From contig JACMOC010000003.1 of the NCBI GenBank assembly GCA_014378195.1, positions 1 to 64,000 on the forward strand: a stretch of 64,000 nucleotides of DNA, written 5' to 3'. The DNA comes from Oligoflexus sp. Its GTDB lineage: Bacteria > Bdellovibrionota_B > Oligoflexia > Oligoflexales > Oligoflexaceae. Every line of letters begins with the position of its first letter. Position 1 is the first letter of the stretch. This document shows positions 3-45,443 of this stretch, one piece after another. A program made the position numbers and the translations under genes. Below the pieces are notes generated by a model. That model was not told where the DNA came from and searched no databases. It was given only the letters and a program-made list of their open reading frames with translations.

Positions 3-233
3 TCGCAAACCTGCTCTGGATGTGCGGCTCAGGAGAAAAAGCTTCTGTCCGAACGCAGGCATTTTTGCAAAGAATGTGGGCTTGATCTTGATAGAGATAT
101 CAATGCAGGCTACGTGATTTTAAATTATGCTTTGACGGGCTCCGTCACGGGTCAGGAACTGGCCTTAGGTGTGGAGGGGAAAACCTTTTCCCCGCTGAAA
201 CACGAAACCCCATCTATAGCGTTCGACGCTTAG
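3..233 (+). pseudogene. tnpB: TnpB (IS200/IS605 OrfB) C-terminal end, cut by window edge
   Basis: An open frame enters from the left edge and ends at the TAG at 231-233 (76 residues visible). It carries the C-terminal hallmarks of TnpB/OrfB: two zinc-knuckle CxxC pairs (TCSGC and FCKEC) followed by the RuvC motif DRDINAG. TnpB is an RNA-guided nuclease encoded by IS200/IS605-type elements. The frame is intact here; whether the full gene is intact cannot be seen, so 'partial CDS' is equally fair. A hairpin overlapping the stop codon fits the element's right end. Confidence 0.88.
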
Positions 234-247
234 GTGGTGGTAGTTCA
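208..247 (+). mobile_element. Right-end hairpin of IS200/IS605-type element, likely 3' end of omega RNA
   Basis: A strong stem-loop overlaps the tnpB stop. The outer arm CCATCTA (210-216) pairs with TAGGTGG (231-237), with one G-T pair. After one bulged T, the inner arm AGCGT (218-222) pairs with ACGCT (226-230) around a TCG loop. It is followed by TGGTAGTTCA, which resembles the right ends of many tnpB elements. In characterised relatives the guide RNA scaffold ends here and the guide is the flanking DNA, which would begin near 248. The exact boundary is inferred. Confidence 0.7.
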
Positions 248-250
248 TGC

Positions 251-685
251 TCAATCGAAACCCGAACCTGCCCCTGACACGTCGATCGCATTGTTGAGAC
301 CATGAAGAAGCTCGACAAATGCGCGTCGATCTTTGGGGGAGATCAGAAGATTCCCTTTTTTATGCTCGACTCGCACGCGTTTAAAGGAAAGGGCAGGGCT
401 CGAAATGATACTTCGTGAGTCCCTAAGCGAGACTATATCAGCGATTTTTATGCGATATTTGAAAGGTCCAGACTTGACGAGGAGCTGTTCGCCTTCGATC
501 TGATAATAGGTGGCGCTCATTATCCATAAACACAAGAGTCCGGCTGCAATCGAGGCCGAGGCCGAGGCCCAAAACGCACCGTTGTCTTCTCGTAAACTAC
601 TAGCGCCAATATAAAACGAAACGAGTACAACGCCTGAAAGCAAAAACATAAGCCAACTATCTTTCGCAGAATCAAACCGTTTCAT
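251..685 (-). CDS. Membrane protein with bacterial PH-like (YyaB/bPH_4-type) domain
   Basis: 144 residues. Two hydrophobic segments (about 10-29 and 38-58) precede a soluble part resembling the YyaB-like bacterial PH domain: a YYQIEGEQLLVKSGPF strand pair, then an ADIVSLRDS helix start and an ISPKDRRAFVELL helix near the end. Function unknown; such domains usually sit on the cytoplasmic face of the membrane. Its ATG overlaps the stop of the upstream permease gene (ATGA), so the two are co-transcribed. Its stop codon lies about 4 nt from the predicted end of the tnpB element, so the element sits immediately behind this gene. Confidence 0.7.
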   Translation of the reverse strand: MKRFDSAKDSWLMFLLSGVVLVSFYIGASSLREDNGAFWASASASIAAGLLCLWIMSATYYQIEGEQLLVKSGPFKYRIKIADIVSLRDSRSIISSPALSFKRVRVEHKKGNLLISPKDRRAFVELLHGLNNAIDVSGAGSGFD

Positions 686-1998
686 GGCTGTCCCTCATTC
701 ATCAGTGCGTCCGCCTTGCCTTTTTCGATATCAACAAACCTCAGCATGATTATGCCGAGTATGAACAAACCTACAACGAAAAGAACGCTCAGGCGTGAAC
801 CACCGGTATATTCTGCCAGGAGTCCAAAAATAAGGGGCCCGAACAATCCAGAAAAACGTGACCAGACACTAAAGAGTCCAAAAAACTCGCCGCTATGTTT
901 GAGCGGGACCATTTGTGAAAACATCGAACGGCTGATCGCCTGATTTGCGCCCTGCACAAGTGCGACACCAACAGCTAGGACCCAAAAATGCCATGCCGTA
1001 CTCATGAAATAGCCAACGATCGAAACAGCGGTGTAAACCGCGAGGGTGATATAAAGCGAATTTTTCGGACCGATTTTTTGGGTGATAGGCCCAAAGGCAA
1101 ACCCCGCAGGAACGCCGATGAATTGAACCAGAAGTATGGCTAAGATCAAATCCGATGCAGCAATGCCCACCTCTCGACCGTATATCGTCGCCATATTCAT
1201 AATCGTGCCTACGCCGTCGCTGTAGGCCCAAAAGCTCACCAAGAACAGGATCACCTGCGGATATTTTTTAAGTTCAGCGAAAGTCTGCTTCAGACGAAAA
1301 ATCGCGCTGAAAGCCAGTTTTATTGTGAACTTTTGGGGGTGGCTGTGGAGGGGCTCACGAACATTTCGAAAGAGGGGAATGCTAAAGAGCAGCCAGCACA
1401 CGCCGACCGAGATAAACGAAAGTTTGATACCGGCTTCGGCATTCGGCAAGCCAAATAGATCAGGTTTCATAATCCACAGGAGGTTTAAAGCGAGGAGTAA
1501 TCCACCGCCCAAGTAGCCCATTGCGTAGCCCGCCGTCGAGATATTGTGCACATTCTCCTCGTTTGAGATGTGAGGCAAAAGCGCTTCGTAAAATATAGTG
1601 CCGACGTGGAACGCAAAATTCGCAAGCGCGAAAATTAAACCAGCCACGAGCCACTGGCCATGCCCCAGACCCGCTAATGCAAAACACCCGAGGGCGCCAA
1701 TAACAGTGTAGTAGGCGAGATATTTTTTCTTTGAGGAACACACGTCCGCCAAGTAGCCCAGCGACGGAGAAACGAGAGCGACCGCTATCATGGAAAACGC
1801 GCTAAAATACGCCCAGTAGGCCGACCTTAGGTTGTTGGGAAGATCCACGGCAAGTACGTCATTGAAGTAGACAGGTAAAATAGCGACCATGATCGTCGTC
1901 GCAAATGCGGAGTTCGCGATATCGTAAACGGCCCAGGAAAGTCGTTCTTTGGTGTCCAGTCCCACTTTTGCCAAAAACGATTGGAACAGGGAAGCCAT
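682..1998 (-). CDS. MFS permease, UMF1 (Atg22-like) family
   Basis: 438 residues with about 12 hydrophobic segments. The N-terminus (ERLSWAVYDIANSAFATTIM) matches the start of UMF1-family permeases, the bacterial relatives of the vacuolar effluxer Atg22. YLADVCSSKKKYL is the MFS loop 2-3 signature. Substrate unknown; in yeast the family exports amino acids, but bacterial members are mostly uncharacterised. AAGGAG lies 6 nt before the ATG. It is the first gene of a two-gene unit with the bPH-domain protein, overlapping it by 4 nt. Confidence 0.88.
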   Translation of the reverse strand: MASLFQSFLAKVGLDTKERLSWAVYDIANSAFATTIMVAILPVYFNDVLAVDLPNNLRSAYWAYFSAFSMIAVALVSPSLGYLADVCSSKKKYLAYYTVIGALGCFALAGLGHGQWLVAGLIFALANFAFHVGTIFYEALLPHISNEENVHNISTAGYAMGYLGGGLLLALNLLWIMKPDLFGLPNAEAGIKLSFISVGVCWLLFSIPLFRNVREPLHSHPQKFTIKLAFSAIFRLKQTFAELKKYPQVILFLVSFWAYSDGVGTIMNMATIYGREVGIAASDLILAILLVQFIGVPAGFAFGPITQKIGPKNSLYITLAVYTAVSIVGYFMSTAWHFWVLAVGVALVQGANQAISRSMFSQMVPLKHSGEFFGLFSVWSRFSGLFGPLIFGLLAEYTGGSRLSVLFVVGLFILGIIMLRFVDIEKGKADALMNEGQP

Positions 1999-2081: not shown

Positions 2082-2765
2082 ATGATGGAACAGAAATCCA
2101 AAGGCTTCGACATATCGGGCCAATTCGAGAGTGAGTTAGCGTTCATGAAAGTTTCTTTAGAAATTTTGGAATCGATCGGTCTCTTGCTATGCCTGTTGCT
2201 AGCTGCGCCGCTTAGATTCTTTCGCCGTCTCGATCACTTCGCTCAGATCAGCGAATATGCGGGATTGCTTATCAAGCGTGGCTTATTCGCCGCTCTTTTG
2301 CGCGCGCGCCTCGACTACCGTATGGGCAACTTCCAACAGTCAGCCGTCCTGCTTGGGCCTATCGTTGAGCAGCTTGAGCGCCTCGTGCATAGGGATAAAA
2401 ACGCCCCACTCAAAATCAGACGGCTTCTATGCACTCTGTATTGCGATATGCAGCAGCTTTATTTTCTCTGCGGTCAAATGGAAGAAGCTGTGATGGTCGT
2501 CATTCGTGCTCATGCCAATCTAGGTATCGATCGACTGCCAAGCAATCCCGACCTTGATTTAAAAACCGCTCACGTCGTTAAAGCCGGAATTGCAGCGAGT
2601 AGGCTGCTCGAAGAAGGTGGTCTAGCGACTCTCATGGTTCGCCAAGGCGAAGAACCTATCGTCAGTCGCACGCCTCCTAAACCTCCCATCAAACGCTGGA
2701 AACCGGAAACAAAAAAGAACCACGGTGCAATCGTGATTCCTTTTCCTACTTTAAAAACGACTTAA
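2082..2765 (+). CDS. Hypothetical membrane-anchored helical (TPR-like) protein
   Basis: Not recognised. From the ATG at 2082 the protein has 227 residues; an in-frame GTG/TTG-type extension to 2028 exists but has no clear ribosome site. A hydrophobic stretch (ESIGLLLCLLLAAPLRFF) lies near residue 30 and is followed by helical pairs such as LLIKRGLFAALLRARLDYRMGNFQQSAVLL and a CDMQQLYFLCGQMEEAVMVV-like pair, which resemble TPR repeats. The tail is Pro/Lys-rich. It runs convergently toward the PEGA kinase gene, with 14 nt between the stops, and diverges from the permease. Confidence 0.55.
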   Translation: MMEQKSKGFDISGQFESELAFMKVSLEILESIGLLLCLLLAAPLRFFRRLDHFAQISEYAGLLIKRGLFAALLRARLDYRMGNFQQSAVLLGPIVEQLERLVHRDKNAPLKIRRLLCTLYCDMQQLYFLCGQMEEAVMVVIRAHANLGIDRLPSNPDLDLKTAHVVKAGIAASRLLEEGGLATLMVRQGEEPIVSRTPPKPPIKRWKPETKKNHGAIVIPFPTLKTT

Positions 2766-2779
2766 GTTAAGCCGAGACT

Positions 2780-4699
2780 CTAATTTTTGAACTGACAGCG
2801 TGGTTTCGCCGTTCCGACAGGTGGCGTAACCATAAGTGTACTCACATTGGTTGTTTCTGGACGATCCACTTTGAACTGGCATTTGTAAATACTGGTATCG
2901 TCAACAGTATGAAATGTCACGGTATGAGACTGACCCGGTTGCAATTCGATCATAAGCGGCGGTTCGCCCGTATAGAGTCCAGAATCAATATCCACCGAAA
3001 TTTTGCCTGCTGTTGATAAGACTTTTACAGCATTCAATGGTACATGCGGCATACGTTTCAGAAAAATTTTATCCGTTTTCAAAGTCTCGCCTGCTGCCCC
3101 TTCAAACCGTATCGTTTCCTTTTGATACCCCGGGCGACTCACTTCGACTTCATAGGCTCCTGGCCTTAAGTGGAGTTTGATTGGAACTTTTTGATAAGCT
3201 CCGTCTTCTACTTTCACGCCATTGATTTTGAGGCTCACGACTTCCGGCAGACTCCGCAGTTCGATATGCATTTTTTTGTCAAAAATAAGGCTGTCTTTGA
3301 AGACGTAACTCAACCCTCCTAAAATCGCGAGCAAAGCGACAAACCAGGGTAAAAACGATTTCTTTTGTTTACGAATAGGACGTGCCGGCCCCATGTTGCC
3401 TGCAACGCGGCCCCGACCCCGCGTATTGGTGTTATTATCGCCATAAGGAGAATCCGTAATCATGTTACGGGGCAGATGTTTGCGATTCAAACCGGTCAGA
3501 GAAATGGGCAAATCGTCGTTTTGAGTCCCTGCCACACTGCGCCCGTCAAGGCCGCGAGGAATCGAGGATGAAGATGCCGAGGATTGAGCCATATCTTCGC
3601 GAATATGATCAGAGCTGGTCATCGAGGATTGGGCGACGCGCGCTCCCGTGCCGCCACGACTTGCGCCGGCATCGAGGGCCATTAATCCTGTATTTGAGCC
3701 GGAAACTGCCATAGTCTGAGCGGGCACTGGCACCGATTCCTGCGCCAGAGTTTCTTTGATGTCGTCTTGCGTGCGGTCACGTTTTTTCGCGAGTATACGC
3801 TTGAGAAAGTTGCCGAGTTCGCGCGACGTAAATTCCGAATAACGCGAGTGCAAATATCGGAGCAGATCTTTTTCAAAAGCTGCTGCGGTTTGGTACCTTT
3901 GCTTTCTGTCTTTTGATAAACCCTTCATGACCAAGGCTTTGAGTTCCGGATCAACTTCCGGATTCAATTCGCAGAGATCGTAGGGAATTTCGCAATTCTG
4001 AACCTTCCTGATGCTCTCCACTTCAGTCATGCCTGCAAACAGGCGCTTCATTGCTAAAGATTCCCATAAAACGATTGCGAGGCTGAAGACATCCGAACGG
4101 CCATCGAGAGGTTTCGCCGCAACCTGTTCCGGGCTCATATAAGAGTATTTACCCTTAACGACGCCGGGACGAGTCTCCGTGAGTTTATTTTCCGCAGACG
4201 CAATACCGAAGTCGGTGATTTTAACGTCACCTTCATAACTTATGAGTATGTTTTGTGGCGAGACATCGCGGTGAACGATTCCCAGGGCTTCATTGGTGAT
4301 TTCATCAGTTTTGGTGTGAGAATAATGCAGGGCGCGCGCCGAACACGCTGTAATGAATAAAGCCATCGGCACGGAGAGCCTGGTTTTCGCTGTTTCACAG
4401 GCGCTCAAGAGACTTCTGAGGTCTGCACCATCAACATGTTCCATAACGAGGGCGTAGGACCCATCAACTTCCGTGAAGTCGTAAACGGCGACGATATTGT
4501 TGTGCTGAAGCCTCTTGCAGATGTGGGCTTCATCGCGGAACATTTCGATAAATTCTTTATCAGCCGCGTAATGAGGCAGAATACGTTTGATGGCAACGAT
4601 CTTTTGGAACGCGGCTTCACCGACAGCTTTACCGAGATAAATCTCAGCCATGCCGCCTCTTGCGATCCGTTTTCCAAGAACGTAACTGTTTCTTGCCAT
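2780..4699 (-). CDS. Ser/Thr protein kinase with transmembrane segment and PEGA domain
   Basis: 639 residues from the ATG at 4699 (a GTG at 4708 is also possible). The N-terminal kinase domain (about 5-290) has a Gly-rich loop (ARGGMAEIY), the AIKRIL lysine, the HRDVSPQNILIS catalytic loop, DFG (DFGIA) and the SPEQ activation-segment end, so it looks active. A low-complexity Ser/Gly linker (about 310-440) leads to one membrane span (FVALLAILGGLSYVF, about 450-465) and a periplasmic PEGA domain (VSLKINGVKVEDG ... YEVEVSRPGYQ). This is a eukaryotic-like sensor kinase as found in myxobacteria and Bdellovibrionota. The HRDVSPQN variant is typical of those groups. Its signal and targets are unknown. 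Confidence 0.93.
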   Translation of the reverse strand: MARNSYVLGKRIARGGMAEIYLGKAVGEAAFQKIVAIKRILPHYAADKEFIEMFRDEAHICKRLQHNNIVAVYDFTEVDGSYALVMEHVDGADLRSLLSACETAKTRLSVPMALFITACSARALHYSHTKTDEITNEALGIVHRDVSPQNILISYEGDVKITDFGIASAENKLTETRPGVVKGKYSYMSPEQVAAKPLDGRSDVFSLAIVLWESLAMKRLFAGMTEVESIRKVQNCEIPYDLCELNPEVDPELKALVMKGLSKDRKQRYQTAAAFEKDLLRYLHSRYSEFTSRELGNFLKRILAKKRDRTQDDIKETLAQESVPVPAQTMAVSGSNTGLMALDAGASRGGTGARVAQSSMTSSDHIREDMAQSSASSSSIPRGLDGRSVAGTQNDDLPISLTGLNRKHLPRNMITDSPYGDNNTNTRGRGRVAGNMGPARPIRKQKKSFLPWFVALLAILGGLSYVFKDSLIFDKKMHIELRSLPEVVSLKINGVKVEDGAYQKVPIKLHLRPGAYEVEVSRPGYQKETIRFEGAAGETLKTDKIFLKRMPHVPLNAVKVLSTAGKISVDIDSGLYTGEPPLMIELQPGQSHTVTFHTVDDTSIYKCQFKVDRPETTNVSTLMVTPPVGTAKPRCQFKN

Positions 4700-4915
4700 G
4701 CGCCTCACCAGACTCTAATTCAGGCACCTAAACTTTAGGTAGTTCTCTTGGGTGTTTCGGCGTCTGTACGAAAAAATGAAGTCCGAAGGGTATGACGCAC
4801 CGGCACTTAGGCGTTAAATGGCGAATTTTGCAGCAGAAACTTTCGGGATCTGATATGAAATTGCGTATGGTTGAGAATAGTTCCCTGTCTAAGGTCGTGA
4901 AGAAGGAAGACTTCT

Positions 4916-5560
4916 GTGCCGCAGTTTTCGCGTTTTATATCAATCGAAGGGGGAGAAGGGGTCGGCAAATCTTACCTATCCCATGGTTTACAAACGCGCC
5001 TGCAGCAGCTCCAATACGAAGTCCTTCTGACTCGAGAGCCCGGTGGCACACCACTCGCTGATTCAGTCCGTCAAATCTTTCTGAACCCCCCAGAAAAACC
5101 AACGGCCCTCGCAGAGCTCTTTTTGGTCTCTGCTGCGCGTACCCAACACGTTCAAAAACTCATTCGTCCCGCTCTCGACCTCGGTCGTTGGGTCATTTGT
5201 GACAGATTCTACGATTCAACCCGGGTTTATCAAGGCGACTTGGCCGGTGTGGATTCCAAAGTCCTCGAAAGCGTCATCGCGATGTCTGTCGAAGGCTGTC
5301 ACCCAGCCCAAACCTTCGTACTTGACTGTCCGACGGACATCGCTATGGACCGGGTTCAAAAACGCACGAAACAATTGCAACTTGAGGCTACAAATCGCTA
5401 TGATGAGGGGTCCCGTGAGATGTATGAATCGCTCCGGAAGGGTTATCTCAAAAGAGTAGCCGAATTCCCCGAGCGGATTGTTCGTCTCGATGCCAGTCAG
5501 ACCCCTGAGCAAGTCCTTGACGATGCTTGGGCTCACGTGAAGCAGTGTTTTAAATTATGA
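4916..5560 (+). CDS. tmk: Thymidylate kinase
   Basis: 214 residues, normal length. It phosphorylates dTMP to dTDP in the cytoplasm. P-loop GGEGVGKS at 12-19, the dTMP-binding TREPGGT at 39-45, and DR at 96-97 in CDRFYDSTRVYQGDL. The start is GTG at 4916, preceded by AGAAGGAAGA with about 6 nt spacing; no better ATG lies in frame. It overlaps holB by 4 nt, the common tmk-holB pairing, and begins the tmk-holB-ricT-tdk operon. Confidence 0.96.
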   Translation: MPQFSRFISIEGGEGVGKSYLSHGLQTRLQQLQYEVLLTREPGGTPLADSVRQIFLNPPEKPTALAELFLVSAARTQHVQKLIRPALDLGRWVICDRFYDSTRVYQGDLAGVDSKVLESVIAMSVEGCHPAQTFVLDCPTDIAMDRVQKRTKQLQLEATNRYDEGSREMYESLRKGYLKRVAEFPERIVRLDASQTPEQVLDDAWAHVKQCFKL

Positions 5561-6552
5561 GCCGTAAAACTAAGACATATACTCAAAAAGACACAGAATT
5601 CAGGCCCTTGCGGCTTTGGAGCGACCTCGTTGGGTTTGACGGTGTGGACGAAACTTTTTATCGCCTTTGGTCGGCCAATCGCCTTCCGCAGGTTGTTGTG
5701 GTGGATGGACGGTCGGGAATTGGCAAACGCAAATTCATGGCTCGCCTTGCCGCGCGGTTTTTTTGCGAAACGCATACCGCATGCGGCAGCTGCGAAGGTT
5801 GTCATTCCGTGCAGCAGGGTCACCAATCGGACCTCTACTGGCTTGAAACGGAAGGCACGATCAAAGTTGCTGATGCCGAGGCCTTTCAGGAGCACCTTGA
5901 TTATCAGGCGCGAAGAGGCCCGCGCCTCGCGGTCCTTATCGATATCGAATCGCTCAACGATCAGGCTTCCAATCGTTTGTTGAAAGTCCTGGAAGAGCCG
6001 CCGCCCGGTGTCCTCATTCTCGCGAGTTGCAGTCGGTTCGACAAATTACTGCCTACGATTCGCTCGCGTTCGGTGCGGTGGCGCGTTCATCCCCCGTTGC
6101 TTCCGGAGAGTACGGCGTTTGTAAAGGAACGCCTTGGTCCCGACTCCCCGGGCGAGGAAGAGATTCAAAACGCGCTCAAGATGTTTGGTCTCTCAATCGG
6201 CCGCGCGCTCACCTATCTCGAACACGGTTCGAGTGAACAGAAAGTTCGGCTCGATCGCCTGCAGCGCCTCCTGCTTTTGCCTTTTAAAGGCGAAAATCTA
6301 AAAGAGATTCAAGAGCTTCTCAAGGAACAGGCCTGGAAGGCTCCCGACCTCGCTCAATTTTTTGAAGTGGCACTCAATCAAAGTTATCGGCGTATACTCC
6401 AGTCTGGGGGAATAACAAGCCTTCAGGATTTCAGACGCATCAAGCATTGGCGGAAAATACTCCAGCAAGTCTATCGGGCTGGAGGCATCGGTCAGAATAA
6501 TCTGAACGTCCAGTTGGTAGCCGAGGCCCTCCTAAGTCCCTTTGAGGGCTGA
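5557..6552 (+). CDS. holB: DNA polymerase III subunit delta'
   Basis: 331 residues. This is the clamp-loader delta' AAA+ subunit, which with delta and tau/gamma loads the sliding clamp. The P-loop is GRSGIGKR at 51-58, with R in place of the usual Ser/Thr, as is common in delta'. A zinc module has Cys at 70, 76, 79 and 82. The sensor region reads NDQASNRLLKVLEEPPP, the delta' version of the SRC motif helix, followed by LPTIRSRS. Overlaps tmk by 4 nt; ricT follows after 20 nt. Confidence 0.93.
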   Translation: MSRKTKTYTQKDTEFRPLRLWSDLVGFDGVDETFYRLWSANRLPQVVVVDGRSGIGKRKFMARLAARFFCETHTACGSCEGCHSVQQGHQSDLYWLETEGTIKVADAEAFQEHLDYQARRGPRLAVLIDIESLNDQASNRLLKVLEEPPPGVLILASCSRFDKLLPTIRSRSVRWRVHPPLLPESTAFVKERLGPDSPGEEEIQNALKMFGLSIGRALTYLEHGSSEQKVRLDRLQRLLLLPFKGENLKEIQELLKEQAWKAPDLAQFFEVALNQSYRRILQSGGITSLQDFRRIKHWRKILQQVYRAGGIGQNNLNVQLVAEALLSPFEG

Positions 6553-6572
6553 AGCAAAAAAGAAAGGATCCC

Positions 6573-7997
6573 ATGTCCGGAATTAATATAGTTGGCGTTC
6601 AGTTCCGTAGAGCCGGCAAAATCTATGATTTTGATGCGAAGGAATTTCCTTTGGCTGTCGGCGATAAAGTTGTGGTTGAAACGGAGCGAGGCCCAAGCCT
6701 TGCCGAAGTCAAACGAATACAGTTCGTGGATGAAGTCGAAGTCAACCTCGAAGCCCTCAAGCCGATCGTACGCCTTGCCTCGATCAAAGATCAGGAAAGT
6801 GCCGGGCGTTTAACGGGTGAGCATTCCGAGCAATTCACCAAGCAAAAAATCAAAGACCTCAATCTTGATATGCGTGTCATCAACGTTGAGATCCAATTCG
6901 GTGGCAATAAGGTCATCGTTTATTTCTCAGCGCCCGGTCGCGTCGATTTCCGCGAACTCGTCAAAGAACTTGCCGGCGGCCTCAAAACCCGCGTGGAATT
7001 AAAACAAGTCGGGGCGCGGGATGAAGCGAAGCTCGCTGGCGGACTTGGGATCTGCGGACGCGAATTCTGCTGTTCCAGTTTTCTCAGAGAATTTGTGCCC
7101 GTCTCGATCAAGATGGCGAAAAACCAAAACCTTGCTCTTAACCCAAGCAAAGTCTCGGGCGGTTGTGGTCGACTCCTTTGCTGCCTGACCTACGAAGACG
7201 AAACCTACTCGTCTCTCCGTCAGGCCTTGTTACCGAAGGGCGCGCGCGTCAAACTTCAGGACGGTAGTGTCGGCGACGTGGTTCGCGGTGATATCCTGAA
7301 TCAAGTGATGCAGGTCGAACTCGATAGCGGAGAACTTCGCACTGTTCCTATTCCCGAACTTGAACTCGTCGATGCAAGTCATGGTGTTGTGGAAGACGAC
7401 TGGGGAAGTGACCTCAACTTCGGCACGCTTATGGGTGGCGCAGGTGATCGTGAGATTGCCGCGCTTGACGATAGCGAAGAAATTTCGCGGCATCGTGAAA
7501 GCGCTGCCGAACCGATTTCAACGTCGGCCCGACCATCAAGTGGCGGGGAACGTATTGCTCGGAATGAGAATCCAAATCAAGGACCTCGCCGCGATCCGCA
7601 ACAAGGAAGCCGACCACGGCCACCACGTGAAAACAGCCGCGCGCCGCGTGACGAAAATCGAGCGCCGGCTCAATCGTCAGCCCAAAACCAAAGGCCTCAA
7701 GGTCCACGTGACGATAAACCACGTGATGGAAATCGCCCGCAAAATCCAAGTCGCGATCGTGGTCCTCGTCAGGGCCAGGGTCCCGCTGAAGGCGAAAATA
7801 AAGCGCAGGGTCAAGGTCAAGGACCACGCGAAGGCAGACCGCGCAATCAAAGCGGTCCTGACCAAAATCGCCGTCCACGTCCTGACAATCGCAATAAGGG
7901 TCCGCGTAATGAAGCGCCACGTGGTGAAGGCTCCAAACCAACGCCCTCTGAGGCACCGAGTCCAATTCGTCCACGCACCGATAAAAAAGAGGATTAA
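6573..7997 (+). CDS. ricT: RicT/YaaT-type PSP1-domain protein with long disordered tail
   Basis: 474 residues. The N-terminal ~270 residues are a PSP1/RicT domain with the conserved cysteine clusters C161-x4-C166-C167 and C198-x4-C203-C204 (GICGREFCC and GGCGRLLCC). In Bacillus, RicT works with RicA and RicF, binds Fe-S clusters and affects RNase Y. Its place right after holB is conserved in many bacteria. The last ~160 residues (about 315-474) are a low-complexity tail of Gly, Pro, Arg, Gln and Asn (repeats such as QGPR and PRDG), far longer than the usual ~270-residue protein. The tail looks disordered and could bind RNA; that is inference. AAGAAAGGA precedes the ATG. Confidence 0.9.
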   Translation: MSGINIVGVQFRRAGKIYDFDAKEFPLAVGDKVVVETERGPSLAEVKRIQFVDEVEVNLEALKPIVRLASIKDQESAGRLTGEHSEQFTKQKIKDLNLDMRVINVEIQFGGNKVIVYFSAPGRVDFRELVKELAGGLKTRVELKQVGARDEAKLAGGLGICGREFCCSSFLREFVPVSIKMAKNQNLALNPSKVSGGCGRLLCCLTYEDETYSSLRQALLPKGARVKLQDGSVGDVVRGDILNQVMQVELDSGELRTVPIPELELVDASHGVVEDDWGSDLNFGTLMGGAGDREIAALDDSEEISRHRESAAEPISTSARPSSGGERIARNENPNQGPRRDPQQGSRPRPPRENSRAPRDENRAPAQSSAQNQRPQGPRDDKPRDGNRPQNPSRDRGPRQGQGPAEGENKAQGQGQGPREGRPRNQSGPDQNRRPRPDNRNKGPRNEAPRGEGSKPTPSEAPSPIRPRTDKKED

Positions 7998-8005
7998 CCT
8001 TTAGC

Positions 8006-8653
8006 ATGGCCAAACTCTATTTTCGTTTTGGGACAGTCGGAAGCGCCAAGACCCTCAACCTTTTGGCGGTTGCCCATGCGTATCAACAGCAGAATAAAAA
8101 AGCCTACCTCATCAAACCGCGTATCGATACGCGGTTTGGTGCGGATGTCATCGGTTCACGTGCAGGTCTCCTTCAAACAGCTGACCTGCTGGTTGATGAA
8201 GACACGCTTATCGATACAAAGCCTTTGATTGGTTGCCACTGTATCCTAGTCGACGAGGTGCAGTTTTTATCGGAGTCCATGATCGAGCAACTGCGCGAGG
8301 TTGCTAACGATCTGAATATTCCGGTTATCTGTTATGGCCTTCGCACGGATTTTCGGGCCCGGCTCTTTCCCGGCAGCAGACGTCTTATGGAACTTGCTGA
8401 TGCGATCGAGGAGGTGAAAACCACCTGCTCCTTTTGCAATCACAAAGCCATTTTCAATTTGAAATTGAGCGACGGAAAACCGACCTTAGATGGGCCAGTT
8501 ATAGAGCTTGGGAAGGAAGAGAAATACATTCCTGCCTGCGCGAAGTGTTATGATGAATCGCTGCATAGAGGTGTCTTGCTAGGCCAGGGAGCGTCTGAAA
8601 ATGCTTCGGCGCGCCCAGCCTTCAAGGACGGATTTTCGGAGCTCAAAATCTAA
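8006..8653 (+). CDS. tdk: Thymidine kinase, type II (TK1-like)
   Basis: 215 residues; salvages thymidine to dTMP. It shows the type II layout: P-loop at 9-16, DEVQFL (Walker B, 83-88), and a zinc site with C141/C144 (CSFC) and C178/C181 (CAKC). The lasso and nucleoside-binding region reads YGLRTDFRARLFPGS. The P-loop is GTVGSAKT: the glycine before the lysine is Ala, while relatives have GSGK(S/T). The gene follows ricT after 8 nt and is the last of the tmk operon, feeding the same dTMP pool as tmk. A terminator follows. Confidence 0.93.
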   Translation: MAKLYFRFGTVGSAKTLNLLAVAHAYQQQNKKAYLIKPRIDTRFGADVIGSRAGLLQTADLLVDEDTLIDTKPLIGCHCILVDEVQFLSESMIEQLREVANDLNIPVICYGLRTDFRARLFPGSRRLMELADAIEEVKTTCSFCNHKAIFNLKLSDGKPTLDGPVIELGKEEKYIPACAKCYDESLHRGVLLGQGASENASARPAFKDGFSELKI

Positions 8654-8663
8654 ATTTGAATAC

Positions 8664-8699
8664 AAAAAAGCCCAGCTCTTCTCAGAGGTGGGCTTTTTT
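8664..8699 (+). terminator. Rho-independent terminator after tdk
   Basis: AAAAAAGCCCA (8665-8674) pairs with TGGGCTTTTTT (8689-8699); the GC core is followed by a T run on the + strand. It ends the tmk-holB-ricT-tdk unit and, being A/T flanked on both sides, could also act on the minus strand. Confidence 0.85.
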
Positions 8700-8802
8700 G
8701 AACTGCTGCAGCTAGGACCAAGTAAAGGAACCGAAGAGAGCCAAAGACTCTCAAGGCGCCCTTCAAGGGCTAGAGGATCACATCACCCGTTAGGGTTAGT
8801 GA

Positions 8803-9096
8803 CTACCAGCGGTTACGGCTTCCGCCGCCGCTTGGGCCAGAGCGTGGAGCTTGTGGCTTAGCTTCGTTGACTGTCAAACGACGGCCATCAAATTCTTTGC
8901 CATCGTACTTAGAGATCGCGTCTTGAGCAGCTGCATCTGTCGACATTTCGACGAATGCAAAGCCTTTGCTGCGGCCTGTGTCACGGTCAGTAATGACCTT
9001 GACGCTATCAACTTGACCAGCTTGCGAGAACAGATCGTGAAGAGCGTCCTCAGTTGTACCGTAAGAAAGACCACCAACATAAAGCTTCTTAACCAT
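8803..9096 (-). CDS. RRM-type RNA-binding protein
   Basis: 97 residues. A single RRM with RNP2 (LYVGGL, 5-10) and RNP1 (KGFAFVEM, about 44-51), and a Gly/Ser/Arg tail ending GGGSRNRW. The layout is the same as the cyanobacterial Rbp and other small bacterial Gly-rich RRM proteins, several of which are cold-induced; regulation here is not known. It is monocistronic, with a long gene-free region upstream. The protein is complete and looks functional. Confidence 0.92.
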   Translation of the reverse strand: MVKKLYVGGLSYGTTEDALHDLFSQAGQVDSVKVITDRDTGRSKGFAFVEMSTDAAAQDAISKYDGKEFDGRRLTVNEAKPQAPRSGPSGGGSRNRW

Positions 9097-9697
9097 GATC
9101 AGTATCCTATAAAAAGAATCCGCCGAGGTAGGACTGAGCGGAATCGCACATTTCTACATAACGGAAGTTCTCTGATGTCTACCTCCTCTTAGCGAGAAGG
9201 TCAATGCATAGCGTCACATTACACGACTAAATTTTCTCAACTTCTTTCAAATTTCTTCTCAGCGGTCGAAATTATTTAGTTCGCAAATTAGATCACATTG
9301 CAGACCGAATGGCAAGATATTATGACTCAAATTGTGATATTTTTTCAAAACACCTGAAATATTTGGGGAATAGCGCTACTCCCCGCTTTGACCCTCCCAC
9401 GGGTCTTCCAAATACCCCCCGAAAATTGGGGGTATCGCCTCATCTTTTATGCCATAGATCAGAGTGGGTCAGCAAAAAATTTTTTGTCCAAATTTGAGCT
9501 GTGGGTCCTCTCGATATTGGGAGGAGGCTAACAAAGAATGCAGGTTAGAAAAATCCTCTGCTTGCCGAGCTTGAATCAAACGTTAATGCAGCGATAGCAA
9601 CCATTTAAGAATTCAGTGAGCCCTAAAATCACGCTCGCTTTTCTTCTCAAATGAATTAGGTTAAGGGCTGAATTCTGGAATCGTAGGAAGGTTAGGC
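9097..9697. other. 600-bp intergenic region with several dyads, no gene seen
   Basis: No convincing ORF, tRNA or known ncRNA. It separates the RRM gene (leftward) from the response-regulator gene (rightward) and must hold both promoters. It is AT-rich on the left. Dyads seen: GGGGA-a-TAGC/GCTA-c-TCCCC at 9365-9384; ATACCCCC/GGGGGTAT at 9412-9435; and the long repeat at 9608-9676 described separately. No T run follows the second hairpin, so it is not an ordinary terminator. Confidence 0.6.
9608..9676 (+). promoter_or_regulatory. Inverted repeat in leader of the response-regulator gene
   Basis: AGAATTC (9608-9614) pairs with GAATTCT (9670-9676), and AGCCCT (9619-9624) with AGGGCT (9664-9669), leaving a 4-nt bulge on one side and a 39-nt loop. 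The second arm ends about 10 nt before the AGGAAGG ribosome site (9685-9691) of the regulator gene. It could be an operator dyad or a leader hairpin; the sequence alone does not decide. Confidence 0.45.
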
Positions 9698-20792: not shown

Positions 20793-21591
20793 CGACGTAG
20801 CTCCAATTATTGATCCCGAACAGGCCTAAAACAAGCAGTCCGAAGCCAATGATCGTCATCCAGGCCAGTTTTTTGGCAGGGAGGTTGGCGACGTTTTTCC
20901 ACACTAAAGTGGCGAAATACCAAAGCCACACAGCGAATGCCCAGATTATCTTACCCATTAAGGCGTTACGATCACCAACAAAAAAGAATTGAAGGTAGAC
21001 CGAACCCATGATGAGGCCGGAGGTCAGCAGGATAAACCCTATCCACAGCGTGGCGAGAAGCGCGGTGTTGAGCTTTGAGATAGGGACTTGGGCAGCCTGC
21101 ATGCGATCGAGCTGTTTATTTTTCATAGCGCGTTGCTGCATGAGATAAAAGACGGCCAGAACACAGGCGATGATAGCGAAGGCTTCGCCGAGAACACTCG
21201 TTATGATGTGAGCTACCATGAGCGCGCCAGGTCCAGCGATCTCAGCGGGTGCATGCGGCGCGAAAAAAAGAAATTGGGCAAGGAGTATGATCATCGATAA
21301 AGGTGCTACAAAAGCGCCAAGCATCCGAAAGTCGAATATGACTTTAGCGAGTATGGTGAGCCAACAGATTGAAGTGATGAGAATGAACGTGCTGATCAAA
21401 TGTTCGGGATTGAATTGAAAAATGCTGACGGTGTTGGCACTGATGATCAGAGTCGCAAGCACAAAGAGCCAGTATGCAGTCTTCTGAAGAGTCGCGCGCG
21501 AGGGCGAGGCCGAAAAGCTCTGGAGGTAAAAAATGGAAGAACCTGCAAATGAGGCCAGCGCTATAATCACGCCTAGATGATAAAGATTCAA
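20785..21591 (-). CDS. hemX: HemX/CcsA-like cytochrome c assembly membrane protein
   Basis: 268 residues from a TTG at 21591, which has AAGGAG 6 nt upstream; a GTG at 21615 would add 8 residues but has no ribosome site. About eight membrane spans. Family: CcsA/CcmF/HemX. GEAFAIIACVLAVFYLMQQ and a late GKIIWAFAVWLWYFATL segment fit. In Bacillus, HemX lowers HemA levels; placement directly before hemA suggests the same link here, but a role in cytochrome c heme handling is also possible. Confidence 0.87.
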   Translation of the reverse strand: MNLYHLGVIIALASFAGSSIFYLQSFSASPSRATLQKTAYWLFVLATLIISANTVSIFQFNPEHLISTFILITSICWLTILAKVIFDFRMLGAFVAPLSMIILLAQFLFFAPHAPAEIAGPGALMVAHIITSVLGEAFAIIACVLAVFYLMQQRAMKNKQLDRMQAAQVPISKLNTALLATLWIGFILLTSGLIMGSVYLQFFFVGDRNALMGKIIWAFAVWLWYFATLVWKNVANLPAKKLAWMTIIGFGLLVLGLFGINNWSYVVG

Positions 21592-40731: not shown

Positions 40732-42477
40732 ATGCGGTTTGCTGCGATTATCCTCTACACAGTGGGGTTCTCCTTTACCTTGACGGCTTGTCTACAGCCA
40801 CCCTTAAGACCGCAATTTGGTAGGCTCCGGACCGACAATGTTGTTCCCGAGACGGATCCTTCGACTGACCCTGACAATCCGGTAACAACAAACCCGAAAA
40901 ATGGTGACAATACAGTCGATATTGCTTTAACGCGGGATACGCTTTCCAAAATTATGGAGGCACCAGGTGGGACGCAGGATAACGCATGTCTCAACAAACC
41001 AACGACGAGCAAAAATCAGCTGCGACTTTTGACGAGTGACGAATACGTAAATACTGTTCAAGATGTTCTACAGATCACAACCGACTACCGCGCCTCCTTG
41101 CCAACCGAGACAACTGTTTTTGGATTTCGCAATAATGCTGATGTCTCTCAGGTCAGTGACGCTCATGCAGCCGCTTACTTGGATGTCGCTCTTTCCGTTG
41201 CGGACGAAGCTAAAGCTAAGCTGCAAAATCTCGTGCAATGCTCAGAAACAGACGGCGTGACCTGCGGTCAAAAGGTCATCAACATGCTTGCGCCTCAGCT
41301 GTGGAGAAGACCGTTAGAAGCCGCTGAAAAATCCAGTTTGTTGAATATGTACAAAGTTGGTCTAGCGAGTTCGCCCACCGAAGGCATGACCATTCTGATC
41401 ACCGATATTCTTATGTCCCCGAACTTTCTTTATCGCAGTGAGATTGGGAAAAGTGGGGCACTGACGGCCTACGAATTAGCAAGTGCAGTCTCCTATTTTT
41501 TCTGGGGCTCGGCACCGGACGCGTCTCTTCAGGCGGCGGCCGCCAATGGCTCGATACTCACCGATGCTGGTTTGGTTGCTCAAGTCCAAAGATATTTTTC
41601 TAGTCCTCGATCCAAATACACATCGACAGAATTCGCCAACGTGTGGCTTGAAAGCCGAAGTGTTCTTGGTGCAAGTAAGGACGCAACGCTGTTCCCGCTC
41701 TTTACGCAGCCAGTGAAAAATGCAATGGCTGCTGAAGCAGTTGACACATTTGAGTTTATGATCAAACAACCGACTACCACATTCGAGAACCTTTTCACCT
41801 TCGATTCGAGTCTGGGCGATGCAAATCTCGCCCAATATTACAGAGGCGCCCTCTCGCAGGATACGGGAGTCGCCAAAATCAAATATGCAGCCAACCCCAG
41901 AAAGGGCGTGCTTAGTTTTGGTGCGGTCCTTTCTCACCTCGCAACGCCGACTGAGACTCATCCCATCAAAAGGGGTGATTATGTCTTGAAAAATATGTTC
42001 TGCCACATACCAGAGCCGACTCCTTCTGGTCTCGTGGTTACTGTTCCGCCTGCAAATGCAGCGCAGACCACGCGTGAGAGATTTGCAGCGCACACGTCCG
42101 ACCCGAAGTGCGCAGGCTGCCATATAGCGATCGATGGAATCGGTTTCGGTATGGAAGACTTTGATGGCGCTGGAGTTTTCCGTGATATGGATCATGGAAA
42201 AAAAGTCGATACTACAGGCGAGGTAGTTGGTATCGATTCCGCTACTACCAAGTTCAGCGGAGTCGGCGAACTGAGCGCTTACATCGCCAGCAGTTCTCAA
42301 GCCAAGCGGTGTTTTGTGGTCGAATGGTATCGCCTCGCTCACGGTTATACCGAACGTCCCGCCGATATTTGTGCGATACGCGATATCGCCAACAAATTTG
42401 AAAAAGGTAACATGACCTTGAGTCGACTTATCATTCAGATCATCACTCACCCTTCCTACGCGAAAAAGGAGCAATGA
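40732..42477 (+). CDS. Lipoprotein with DUF1587/1592/1588/1585 modules and a c-type heme motif
   Basis: 581 residues. Lipoprotein signal ending LTAC (C20), then the tandem DUF set known from Planctomycetes and Myxococcota: LLTSDEYVNTVQDVL, ILMSPNFLYRSEIG, KRGDYVLKNMFCHIPEP, and RERFAAHTSDPKCAGCHIAIDGIGFGMEDFD, read in parts. CAGCH at 460-464 is a c-type heme site. Probably an exported redox protein at the outer membrane. AAAGGA precedes the ATG. The DUF1552 gene starts 1 nt after its stop. Confidence 0.9.
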   Translation: MRFAAIILYTVGFSFTLTACLQPPLRPQFGRLRTDNVVPETDPSTDPDNPVTTNPKNGDNTVDIALTRDTLSKIMEAPGGTQDNACLNKPTTSKNQLRLLTSDEYVNTVQDVLQITTDYRASLPTETTVFGFRNNADVSQVSDAHAAAYLDVALSVADEAKAKLQNLVQCSETDGVTCGQKVINMLAPQLWRRPLEAAEKSSLLNMYKVGLASSPTEGMTILITDILMSPNFLYRSEIGKSGALTAYELASAVSYFFWGSAPDASLQAAAANGSILTDAGLVAQVQRYFSSPRSKYTSTEFANVWLESRSVLGASKDATLFPLFTQPVKNAMAAEAVDTFEFMIKQPTTTFENLFTFDSSLGDANLAQYYRGALSQDTGVAKIKYAANPRKGVLSFGAVLSHLATPTETHPIKRGDYVLKNMFCHIPEPTPSGLVVTVPPANAAQTTRERFAAHTSDPKCAGCHIAIDGIGFGMEDFDGAGVFRDMDHGKKVDTTGEVVGIDSATTKFSGVGELSAYIASSSQAKRCFVVEWYRLAHGYTERPADICAIRDIANKFEKGNMTLSRLIIQIITHPSYAKKEQ

Positions 42478-42478
42478 C

Positions 42479-43849
42479 ATGGATGACAAAATTCGTAAAG
42501 AGATTTCGAGGCGTAATCTCTTCCGTTACCTTGGCAATTCAGTCGTAATGCTGCCGTTCATGAGAACTCTTATGGAGACGCAGGCGTTCGGCGAAACAAC
42601 AAATAAACGAGCAGTTTTTTTCTACTATCCAGATGGCATCATTGAGTCGGCTTTTCATCCGACTTCCATAGGGACAGGCTTTGTTTTGCCAGGTATGACC
42701 GCTCCTTTGGGATCGGTTCAAGGCGATATTATCATGATCAAGGGGGTGGACTACAAAACCTCAAACAGTCATCAGGGTGGGGCGAATTACGCCCTCACCG
42801 GTTGTGAAAACTCCATCACCAATGTTTCGATCGATACTTATCTCGGGAGCAAGTTTCCAAAAACAATACCTGCCTTGAGGCTCGGCGTCGCAACGCAGTA
42901 TGAAGGTGCGGATATTGCCAAAGCTTTGTCGTTCTCAGCCGTAACCGGTGGACAACCAACTCTGTCGCAAATAGAAGATAACCCAACCAAAGCATTTAAC
43001 GCTCTATTCGGTGGGAGCACCTCTTCCCCTTCACCAACATCGGGCGCAGCTACACCACCTGTCAAAGGTCTCTCCAACACGCTCAAAAAAAGTTTGCTTG
43101 ATGACAACCTTGAGCAGATCAAAGGCCTGCAGAGTAAACTCGGTACGCTCGAAAAGACCAAACTTGATCTCCACCTGGCGTCTATCCGCGAAATTGAGCG
43201 TCGACTCCAGTCAAGCACGACAAGTACCACGACGGCTAGTGCTCAATGCACAAAAACTATTTCTCAGACAAAAACCTTCGCAGTAAACGATACCAACTAT
43301 CCCAAGGCCTATTGGACGTCGGATGTGTTTGATGCCGTAGTTGATATGCAGACGCAGATTGCTATCCAGGCGATGGCCTGTGGCGTTACCAATGTCGTCC
43401 TTTTACAGATGTCACATTCGGTGTCTAACGCTCATTTTGCCAACGGAATGCCGTCGAGCACAGGGACTGATCATCATGATACCTCCCATTATAAAAACGG
43501 GAGTCTAGCCATGATCCATACCCAAAATCAAGCGTATATGATGACCAAATACGCCAATCTAATCAAAGGCATGAGCGCAATAAAAGAGGGTGATAAATCG
43601 CTACTTTATAATAGCGTTGCCCTCGCGTTTTCCGAACTCGGCGACAGTGATGATCACAAGTTTAAAAATATGGGACTCGTACTTGCTGGACAGGCCGGTG
43701 GCTACTTCAGGACAGGGCGATGCATTGATGGAACAGGAATGGTTCACAATAATTTGCTTGTTTCCATCCTGCAATCTATGGGTTTGTCTGACACCACTTT
43801 TGGTCGAACAGATGTGGCTGCGGGTGGCATTGATGCACTTAAAGGCTAG
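42479..43849 (+). CDS. DUF1552 protein with Tat-type signal
   Basis: 456 residues. The N-terminus SRRNLFRYLGNSVVMLPF is a twin-arginine-type signal. The rest matches DUF1552: AVFFYYPDGI, a His-rich NSHQGGANYALTG, MSHSVSNAHF and the DHHDTSHYKNG segment. This family almost always accompanies DUF1592-type genes. Folded export through Tat fits a metal- or cofactor-binding protein. AAGGAG precedes the ATG. Substrate unknown; the pair has been proposed to act in oxidation of polymers or sugars, without firm proof known to me. Confidence 0.88.
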   Translation: MDDKIRKEISRRNLFRYLGNSVVMLPFMRTLMETQAFGETTNKRAVFFYYPDGIIESAFHPTSIGTGFVLPGMTAPLGSVQGDIIMIKGVDYKTSNSHQGGANYALTGCENSITNVSIDTYLGSKFPKTIPALRLGVATQYEGADIAKALSFSAVTGGQPTLSQIEDNPTKAFNALFGGSTSSPSPTSGAATPPVKGLSNTLKKSLLDDNLEQIKGLQSKLGTLEKTKLDLHLASIREIERRLQSSTTSTTTASAQCTKTISQTKTFAVNDTNYPKAYWTSDVFDAVVDMQTQIAIQAMACGVTNVVLLQMSHSVSNAHFANGMPSSTGTDHHDTSHYKNGSLAMIHTQNQAYMMTKYANLIKGMSAIKEGDKSLLYNSVALAFSELGDSDDHKFKNMGLVLAGQAGGYFRTGRCIDGTGMVHNNLLVSILQSMGLSDTTFGRTDVAAGGIDALKG

Positions 43850-44036: not shown

Positions 44037-45443
44037 ATGAGAAAAATATCGATTATGAGCCATCCTCCGTTTGAATTCAGAATCAAATGGCAAAGATTTG
44101 AAAGGCAAGTTCGTAGGGTCTTCGCTTTTCGCCGAAAGAATTTTGCGAAGGATTCACTGCGTTATAGAATCTTGCAGAGTTGCACAGCAGAGTTGCTAAG
44201 CAATAGCGACGGCATGGCCATTCTCAAAAACATCGTGCATCATCTCGTTCCGGAAATGGGCGATTGGTGTCTGGTCAACCTTGCAACAGCAAATGGTGGT
44301 CTCAGCCGACATTCCGAGGCTCGGAGCATGAGCCTAAAGAAGAGCCTTGCCCTCGACGAGATTCGGCTGCGCTTTCCGCCTAATCCAATGGCAAAAGGCG
44401 GCTTGGCCGAAGTGATCCGGACCGGTAAATCACAGCTCGTTTCAGTGATGCCTGACGATTTTTTTGCTTCAAATTCGACCAATTCTGATTATCGTACACT
44501 CTGGGCAAGTCTCGGAATCGTTTCTTATATCGGCGTGCCCATCATCCTGCGAGGGCAGGTCTACGGAGCTATCGCGATCGACTCGCTCACGCCTGCTCGA
44601 CACTATGATCATTCCGATCAGCTCTTTCTCGAAGAGATCGCCAGCCTTATGGGCTTGGCTTTGGAAAGGGTAAAACTCCTTCGAGAGGCCAACGAAGCCA
44701 ATCAACAGAAGGATCAATTCCTGGCTATGCTTTCGCATGAACTGAGAACGCCGATCAGCGCTGTTCTCGGCTGGTCGCAGCTTCTCCTGCAAAAACCGCG
44801 GAACCCTAAATTAGATGAGTTCAAGGCCCTCGAAGTGATCGAGAGGAGTGCGCGGCAACAGAAAGCCTTAGTCGACGATATTCTTGATTTGTCGCTCGTC
44901 ACCTTGGGCCGTTTGCGTCTCGTTACCAGCCAGGTGGATCTCAATCAGATTATTCAAACGACACTCGATTCCGCAATTATTCAGGCCGAAGACAAACAGA
45001 TCGGTATTGTATTTCAAAGGGATTTGGATCAGGCCTCCATCATCGGAGATGCCTCAAGGCTTCGACAGGTGCTAAGCAATGTAGTCAACAATGCGATCAA
45101 GTTCACACCCGCGGGGGGGCGTATCAACATCGATCTTATGAGATCGATCGATGAATATTCGATTCGTATTACGGATTCGGGCATAGGTATCGACCCTCAG
45201 TTCTTGCCTGTTATCTTCGATCGCTTTCGACAGGTCAATGATTCCATCAGTCGATCCTATGGTGGAATGGGACTCGGACTCGCACTTGTGGATCATATCG
45301 TGCGCTTGCATGGAGGAAAAGTGTGGGCTGAGAGCAAGGGTGAGGGGGCCGGTACGAGCGTCGTAATCGTGCTCAAGCATTTACCATGTCCGCATTCAAC
45401 TGCTGATGGTCTCACTTTTGAACACCTCAACTCAAGTCTTTGA
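44037..45443 (+). CDS. Soluble GAF-domain histidine kinase
   Basis: 468 residues without membrane spans. A GAF domain (about 50-215, with SLGIVSYIGVPIILRGQVYGAIAID) precedes a phosphoacceptor domain (AMLSHELRTPISAVLGW) and an ATPase domain (NNAIKFTPAGG, DSGIGIDPQFLPVIFDRF, GGMGLGLALVDHIV). No receiver gene is adjacent, so it is an orphan kinase. It lies 187 bp after the DUF1552 gene on the same strand, but a promoter in between is likely. GGAAAGAG precedes the ATG. Confidence 0.9.
   Translation: MRKISIMSHPPFEFRIKWQRFERQVRRVFAFRRKNFAKDSLRYRILQSCTAELLSNSDGMAILKNIVHHLVPEMGDWCLVNLATANGGLSRHSEARSMSLKKSLALDEIRLRFPPNPMAKGGLAEVIRTGKSQLVSVMPDDFFASNSTNSDYRTLWASLGIVSYIGVPIILRGQVYGAIAIDSLTPARHYDHSDQLFLEEIASLMGLALERVKLLREANEANQQKDQFLAMLSHELRTPISAVLGWSQLLLQKPRNPKLDEFKALEVIERSARQQKALVDDILDLSLVTLGRLRLVTSQVDLNQIIQTTLDSAIIQAEDKQIGIVFQRDLDQASIIGDASRLRQVLSNVVNNAIKFTPAGGRINIDLMRSIDEYSIRITDSGIGIDPQFLPVIFDRFRQVNDSISRSYGGMGLGLALVDHIVRLHGGKVWAESKGEGAGTSVVIVLKHLPCPHSTADGLTFEHLNSSL

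Follow-up and report, generated by a model that had tools for sequence, protein, structure and literature searches.

The DNA analysed here, referred to as the window, is a stretch of 64,000 nucleotides (nt) from Oligoflexus sp. (GCA_014378195.1, contig JACMOC010000003.1, positions 1–64,000, forward strand). It features a gene pair that encodes a predicted lipoprotein of the DUF1592 family that carries a single c-type haem motif and a DUF1552 (HXXSHH) protein with a twin-arginine (Tat) signal (Table 1). An initial annotation of the window had given the coordinates of the two open reading frames (ORFs) and placed them 1 nt apart, and ORF reading confirms both; the last base of the cytochrome stop codon is 42477, and the DUF1552 gene opens with an ATG at 42479, with AAGGAG immediately 5' of this start codon. 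Scans for consensus promoters and terminators gave results at chance level.

Table 1. Features of the DUF1592–DUF1552 gene pair in the window and of genes near one paralogous pair (last row, numbered within locus L028)
Feature	Position	Strand	Basis
DUF1592-family lipoprotein, one c-type haem motif, 581 aa (amino acids)	40732..42477	+	ORF; five Pfam domains; lipobox Cys20
DUF1552 (HXXSHH) protein, twin-arginine signal, 456 aa	42479..43849	+	ORF; PF07586; DUF1501 kinship
CAGCH haem-attachment motif, residues 460–464, within DUF1588/PSCyt3	42109..42123	+	sequence, Pfam, alignment
Twin-arginine codons, residues 11–12 of the DUF1552 protein	42509..42514	+	RR in 46/46 rows
His98 codon, proposed metal ligand, aligned with invariant DUF1501 His133	42770..42772	+	46/46 rows
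His333–His337 codons (HxxSH, here HDTSH), proposed metal ligands	43475..43489	+	His333 44/46, His337 46/46
His393 codon, proposed metal ligand, aligned with invariant DUF1501 His367	43655..43657	+	45/46 rows
L028 peroxidase-relative / AhpC-redoxin-like genes	1220-2236 and 8598-9167	-	neighbour scan

The cytochrome lipoprotein features five of the five domains of the DUF1587-1595-1592-1588-1585 series above the Pfam cut-off, namely PSD3/DUF1587 (residues 98–160), PSD5/DUF1595 (178–237), PSD4/DUF1592 (244–370), PSCyt3/DUF1588 (390–486), and PSD2/DUF1585 (506–574). The initial annotation described this protein as a DUF1592 cytochrome and a haem lipoprotein. The DUF1592 domain is indeed present, but the single CAGCH motif sits in DUF1588 and not in DUF1592. 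The haem motif columns (Cys, Cys, His) are retained in 48 of the 48–49 rows of the cytochrome alignment that have letters there. The N-terminus is lipobox-like (TLTAC, with the Cys at position 20), and the lipobox Cys20, both motif Cys, and the motif His are invariant in all 15 cytochrome rows from this genome, which bears out the lipoprotein description. A profile of these cytochromes matched a cytochrome c555 trimer and cytochrome c552 among the PDB sequences over the haem stretch only. A direct search of the PDB sequences with the window proteins gave no meaningful match, an NCBIfam scan gave zero matches for either protein, and the Pfam scan placed no carbohydrate-binding domain in the cytochrome.

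The partner protein matches HXXSHH/DUF1552 (PF07586) at residues 44–354 with an E-value of 4.1e-49 and 168.3 bits vs a cut-off of 30, and its HxxSH motif reads HDTSHY (residues 333–338). The N-terminus contains SRRNLF, of which Arg11-Arg12 is invariant across the 46 DUF1552 rows. The Pfam TAT_signal model has no match to the window protein, and a profile search of the genome found a TatC gene as well as three cytochrome-c-assembly matches, one of which lies inside the window at 20800–21378. The earlier description of a Tat-exported DUF1552 partner agrees with these results. Haem attachment, lipidation, and export are predicted from the motifs and their conservation.

The Oligoflexus genome assembly comprises 85 contigs with a total of 4.66 Mb and is 82% complete. 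It contains 16 DUF1552 and 17 DUF1588 matches, and the paralogues were surveyed in 16 stretches around these matches plus the window. The survey found 14 complete adjacent pairs, of which the window pair, to which the initial annotation was limited, is one. The cytochrome gene comes first in 12 of these pairs and the order is reversed in two (L025, L029); the genes of a pair are at most 34 nt apart or overlap. The copies outside the complete pairs are a copy with stop codons (L031, contig C61), a truncated copy (L032), a copy that is split over two frames and has no partner (L024), and a truncated second cytochrome (L021). Two cytochromes had been considered as haem-less paralogues and this description was dropped because the alignment reveals CxxxCH in place of CxxCH; this replacement is found in three of the 15 cytochromes, L019:9789-11501(+), L026:6843-8594(-), and L021:5398-6801(+). 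Two loci feature a different partner family. L033 encodes a DUF1588 protein that has CxxCH twice (5209-7605(-)) and whose gene overlaps a DUF1501 gene (3893-5209(-)), which is the same layout. L031 has a DUF1501-like gene (190-1641(-), below cut-off) clustered with a gene for a CxxCH protein that has a weak DUF1585 match (2448-4046(-)), and this cluster adjoins the DUF1552/DUF1592 copy broken by stops. Among ORFs around the pairs, which were picked by length and not curated, no other gene family occurred at more than four of the 17 loci. A substrate guess from these neighbours was dropped, as they are unrelated and share no common family.

The two genes of the pair diverge together. When the distance matrix of the 14 cytochromes is compared with that of their partners, the correlation is r = 0.947, and none of 20000 label permutations reached this value; after removal of two recent duplicates r is 0.804, which again was reached by none of 20000 permutations. 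In 10 of the 14 pairs, the cytochrome and its partner have their closest paralogues in one and the same other pair. The pair is therefore inherited and duplicated and diverges as a unit. Shared duplication history alone could give such a correlation, so co-divergence is no proof of contact between the proteins.

The pairing also holds across the phylum, which was surveyed in 58 genomes using matches above cut-off, with gene pieces merged and a DUF1588 gene counted as the partner when it was on the same strand and at most 2.5 kb away. By this measure, 95 of 105 DUF1552 genes are paired (with the cytochrome upstream in 90) and 96 of the 114 DUF1588 genes are accompanied by DUF1552. DUF1552 occurs in 17 of the genomes and DUF1588 in 20, and all 17 carry both. 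The numbers of DUF1552 and DUF1588 genes per genome correlate with r = 0.993, vs 0.38 for DUF1552 and DUF1501. Two of the 10 unpaired DUF1552 genes are the broken copies of the Oligoflexus genome, and four are plus-strand genes that start less than 500 bases from a contig start, where an upstream partner would fall beyond the contig. Of the 18 DUF1588 genes that are unpaired, four have DUF1501 close by. The tight pairing given in the initial annotation is thus upheld; the pair is a real unit, which is proposed to act as one functional unit in the cell envelope.

Profile-profile comparison shows that DUF1552 is distantly related to DUF1501. An alignment of the 14 DUF1552 proteins of this genome matched an alignment of 23 DUF1501 proteins with a probability of 98.6 (P = 6.9e-16) over 332 columns. 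Unrelated alignments in the same comparison gave probabilities of 0.1 or lower and the best of 30 column-shuffled full alignments reached 0.9. The match remains when the 60 N-terminal residues are trimmed (probability 97.1, P = 6.8e-11) and in a larger set of 46 DUF1552 and 26 DUF1501 rows (probability 98.9). The DUF1501 profile in turn matches the PDB sequences in 37 rows at E ≤ 10, of which 32 are sulfatases or other alkaline-phosphatase-superfamily enzymes. These matches cover a single stretch that ends near an SDFG motif, their best E-value is only 0.025, and the matched sequences are not independent of one another. DUF1552 is therefore likely to belong to the sulfatase/alkaline-phosphatase superfamily, a placement that is indirect and runs through DUF1501.

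The alignment of the two families points to a candidate metal site. The DUF1501 invariants His133, His367, and Asp352 align with His98, His393, and Glu386 of DUF1552. The N-terminal Asp71, which is invariant in DUF1501, aligns with Ile55 and is thus not retained, and the DTH stretch of DUF1501 has no reliable alignment with DUF1552. No Asp exceeds 85% conservation in DUF1552 at the N-terminal Asp position or in the DTH region. Residues retained among the 46 rows include His98 (46), Asp119 (46), His333 (44), His337 (46), and His393 (45). His98, His333, His337, and His393 may form a His-rich metal site. The Tat partner is more likely a relative of metalloenzymes than a redox carrier, because it is kin to DUF1501 and four near-invariant His remain. 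DUF1800 partners DUF1501 at all five places found in the phylum, and the five DUF1800 proteins examined have no CxxCH. DUF1800 (as in L092:1495-3042(-)) shows weak C-terminal similarity to the DUF1585 region. Homology of DUF1592 and DUF1800 is not claimed, as the match is confined to this region (probability 29, P = 6e-4; maximum over 30 shuffles 0.4).

The pair is also found outside the phylum. A peptide-pattern search for relatives gave one genome contig (L017) and, among viral contigs, zero relatives. A Roseibacillus metagenome-assembled genome features the same pair with an additional PSCyt1 domain in the cytochrome. Plasmid records contain 13 with DUF1552 relatives and 16 with DUF1592 relatives, nearly all from Sphingobium or Novosphingobium; two Novosphingobium loci are in records without annotation. 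Eight annotated Sphingobium loci were examined, two of them from one record. A cytochrome b561 gene is located behind the pair in five of the eight, and in four of these five a cytochrome c' is listed between the pair and b561 (domains checked in L099). At two Sphingobium loci, L102:7673-8926(+) and L104:7637-8854(+), the gene directly upstream of the pair encodes a protein of 406–418 aa with no Pfam match. The S. herbicidovorans pair has HsaA- and HsaC-like genes of steroid type nearby, both below the curated cut-offs. Judged by the record names, the Tom strains are probably among the tomato-associated Sphingobium of PMC10653915, the accessible text of which names no cytochrome.

In Pseudoalteromonas sp. 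Bsw20308 the cytochrome is part of a 2157-aa fusion (L100:4096-10566(+)) in which three starch-binding CBM26 modules and a sugar dehydrogenase (PF07995) are joined to a cytochrome c and DUF1587-1595-1592-1588. DUF1585 is just below the cut-off in this protein and a DUF1552 gene follows it. PF07995 members are known to use pyrroloquinoline quinone, and the dehydrogenase is of this type. On a Planctomyces plasmid a DUF1587 protein is encoded nearby, as is a 3-keto-disaccharide hydrolase, and this Planctomycetota locus agrees with the earlier statement that the pair occurs in Planctomycetes. The Sphingobium b561 genes and the Pseudoalteromonas sugar-dehydrogenase fusion support electron exchange of the pair with the respiratory chain, by analogy with these loci. 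The initial annotation had called the pair a redox module. A redox role is retained indirectly, through these two contexts, and the Tat partner is now grouped with DUF1501 instead of being regarded as redox active itself.

Taken together, the pair may be an envelope unit in which a Tat-exported metal-site protein works with a tethered cytochrome that exchanges electrons, a proposal that we favour tentatively and place somewhat short of an even chance. The DUF1552 protein would fold with its metal in the cytoplasm, be exported by Tat, and bind substrate at a His-rich metal site inherited from an ancestor of sulfatase/alkaline-phosphatase type. The cytochrome, tethered to the membrane, would dock to it, and single electrons would be exchanged between the metal-site chemistry, or its product, and periplasmic carriers that lead to the respiratory chain. 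It is our guess that the direction is substrate oxidation with electrons passed to the chain, and that the paralogous pairs are versions for different substrates.

Several results weigh against this proposal. The redox context, b561 and the dehydrogenase fusion, derives from other phyla, and in the Oligoflexus genome (as far as it is complete) the b561 family PF01292 is not found, PF07995 has just one borderline match, and LPMO_10, the one lytic polysaccharide monooxygenase (LPMO) family searched, has 0 matches. The remaining three of the eight Sphingobium loci have a 160-codon gene behind the pair, which is glyoxalase-like in the one scanned. The DUF1552 profile gave 11 rows against the PDB sequences and none is from the sulfatase/alkaline-phosphatase superfamily. 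A sixth haem ligand is not visible, since no Met or His besides the motif His reaches 85% in the 50-row cytochrome alignment. AlphaFold2 models had a mean predicted local distance difference test score (pLDDT) of 29.5 for DUF1552 with one relative and 32.0 for the cytochrome alone, which is unusable.

A bolder form of the proposal is that DUF1552 is a sulfatase/alkaline-phosphatase-type scaffold that lost its Asp ligands and turned into a redox metalloenzyme. A site of the four His (98, 333, 337, and 393), perhaps with copper or iron, would oxidise the substrate and pass electrons to the haem of the partner. The DUF1592–DUF1552, DUF1501-with-PSCyt, and DUF1800–DUF1501 pairs would then belong, as separate branches, to a single envelope enzyme system that is widespread and has about 14 substrate-specific versions in this genome. 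In this full form the idea is speculative and distinctly unlikely.

The kinship of DUF1552 with DUF1501, and of DUF1501 with the enzymes in 32 of its 37 PDB rows, would also suit an ordinary sulfatase/alkaline-phosphatase-type hydrolase or lyase, with the haem lipoprotein outside the chemistry as an anchor, a protector, or a redox sensor. DUF1501 also pairs with DUF1800 and the five such partners examined lack CxxCH, so haem is not essential to the DUF1501-type partner family. The accessible part of PMC5615132 also describes some Verrucomicrobia in which sulfatase genes are located close to PSCyt genes, which points the same way. However, the replacement of Asp71 by Ile55 and the lack, at 85%, of the Asp ligands expected of a hydrolytic site argue against a hydrolase, and the haem motif, which would be superfluous for an anchor, is kept in all 15 of the genome's cytochromes that reach it. 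This alternative deserves attention but is unlikely. The cytochrome could instead supply electrons to secreted oxidases, LPMOs among them, with DUF1552 preparing or binding the polymer. According to the accessible text of PMC8981238, LPMOs are reduced in vitro by the X183 domain of Cbp2D, a protein with DUF1587 and cytochrome domains, and both the CBM26 modules of the Pseudoalteromonas fusion and the carbohydrate-binding modules (CBMs) that PMC5615132, in its accessible part, describes in PSCyt proteins would fit such a role. The window protein has no such domain, however, the search for LPMO_10, the one LPMO family covered, was negative in the 82% complete genome, and the S. herbicidovorans pair is near steroid-type and not polysaccharide genes (by the sub-threshold matches given above). 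The donor role is improbable.

Two pairs have neighbours that would suit a part in an envelope system that handles peroxide or other oxidants. A gene for a di-haem peroxidase (CCP_MauG, 8421-9536(-)) is located about 130 nt upstream of the L029 pair, and L028 has an AhpC/redoxin-like gene upstream of its pair and, about 3 kb away, a gene related to the L029 peroxidase. These are only two of the 14 loci, and the window locus has neither gene; such a part is very improbable. The contact between the two proteins is a proposal only, which leaves room for proteins that are merely co-transcribed and act apart. Against this stand the co-divergence and the matching copy numbers across paralogues and genomes, as well as the adjacency that is kept in other phyla and in the two reversed-order loci (L025, L029), and we consider separate action very improbable as well.

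The pair type has been described before as unsolved. According to the accessible part of PMC5615132, PSCyt3 genes usually lie beside members of an uncharacterised gene family, and the functions are declared unknown. The PSCyt3 loci of freshwater Verrucomicrobia in that work feature the same domain kit, neighbour arrangement, and, in some genomes, high copy number; the neighbour goes unnamed in the main text that could be accessed, and DUF1552 appears in the paper. The window cytochrome differs from the Roseibacillus relative in that it lacks PSCyt1. The DUF1501–DUF1800 operon and a Tat motif are noted in the accessible part of PMC5122149. DUF1501 resembles DUF1552 in its Tat signal, in homology over 332–355 columns, in a larger, helical-looking partner, and in the His133/His367 pair that corresponds to His98/His393, whereas DUF1552 lacks Asp71 and the DTH signature and has HxxSH, and the DUF1800 partner is without CxxCH. 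The likeness to the sulfatase/alkaline-phosphatase superfamily lies in the many members matched by the DUF1501 profile at the SDFG motif; DUF1552 differs by having no direct match and by the loss of the expected Asp ligand. Cbp2D of Cellvibrio japonicus is similarly a secreted multidomain electron donor with DUF1587 and single-haem domains, of which the isolated X183 cytochrome domain donates electrons to LPMOs in vitro, but it has a CBM and a YceI-like domain, and a DUF1552 partner is not mentioned in the accessible text (PMC8981238).

A literature search, with subscription papers and preprints outside its scope, found no paper that assigns a function to DUF1552, in line with the earlier statement that the pair has no settled function. 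What is added here is the expansion, the co-divergence, the DUF1501 kinship, and the links to b561 and to a dehydrogenase. The families were named from Planctomycetes, lack a functional assignment in the papers retrieved, and are present in many copies across several phyla. The DUF1501 and probable sulfatase-type placement of DUF1552 gives residues for mutation, and named, probably culturable strains in which copies are wired to b561, or joined to a sugar dehydrogenase, provide systems for function tests.

The window neighbours of the pair include ORFs at 37746 and 39219 that, from reading of their translations, probably encode a cysteinyl-tRNA synthetase and an imidazolonepropionase. A GAF-HisKA-HATPase histidine kinase gene (44037–45443 (+)) follows the pair on the same strand after 190 nt, and kinase-type ORFs related to it are also found near the L019, L021, and L025 copies.

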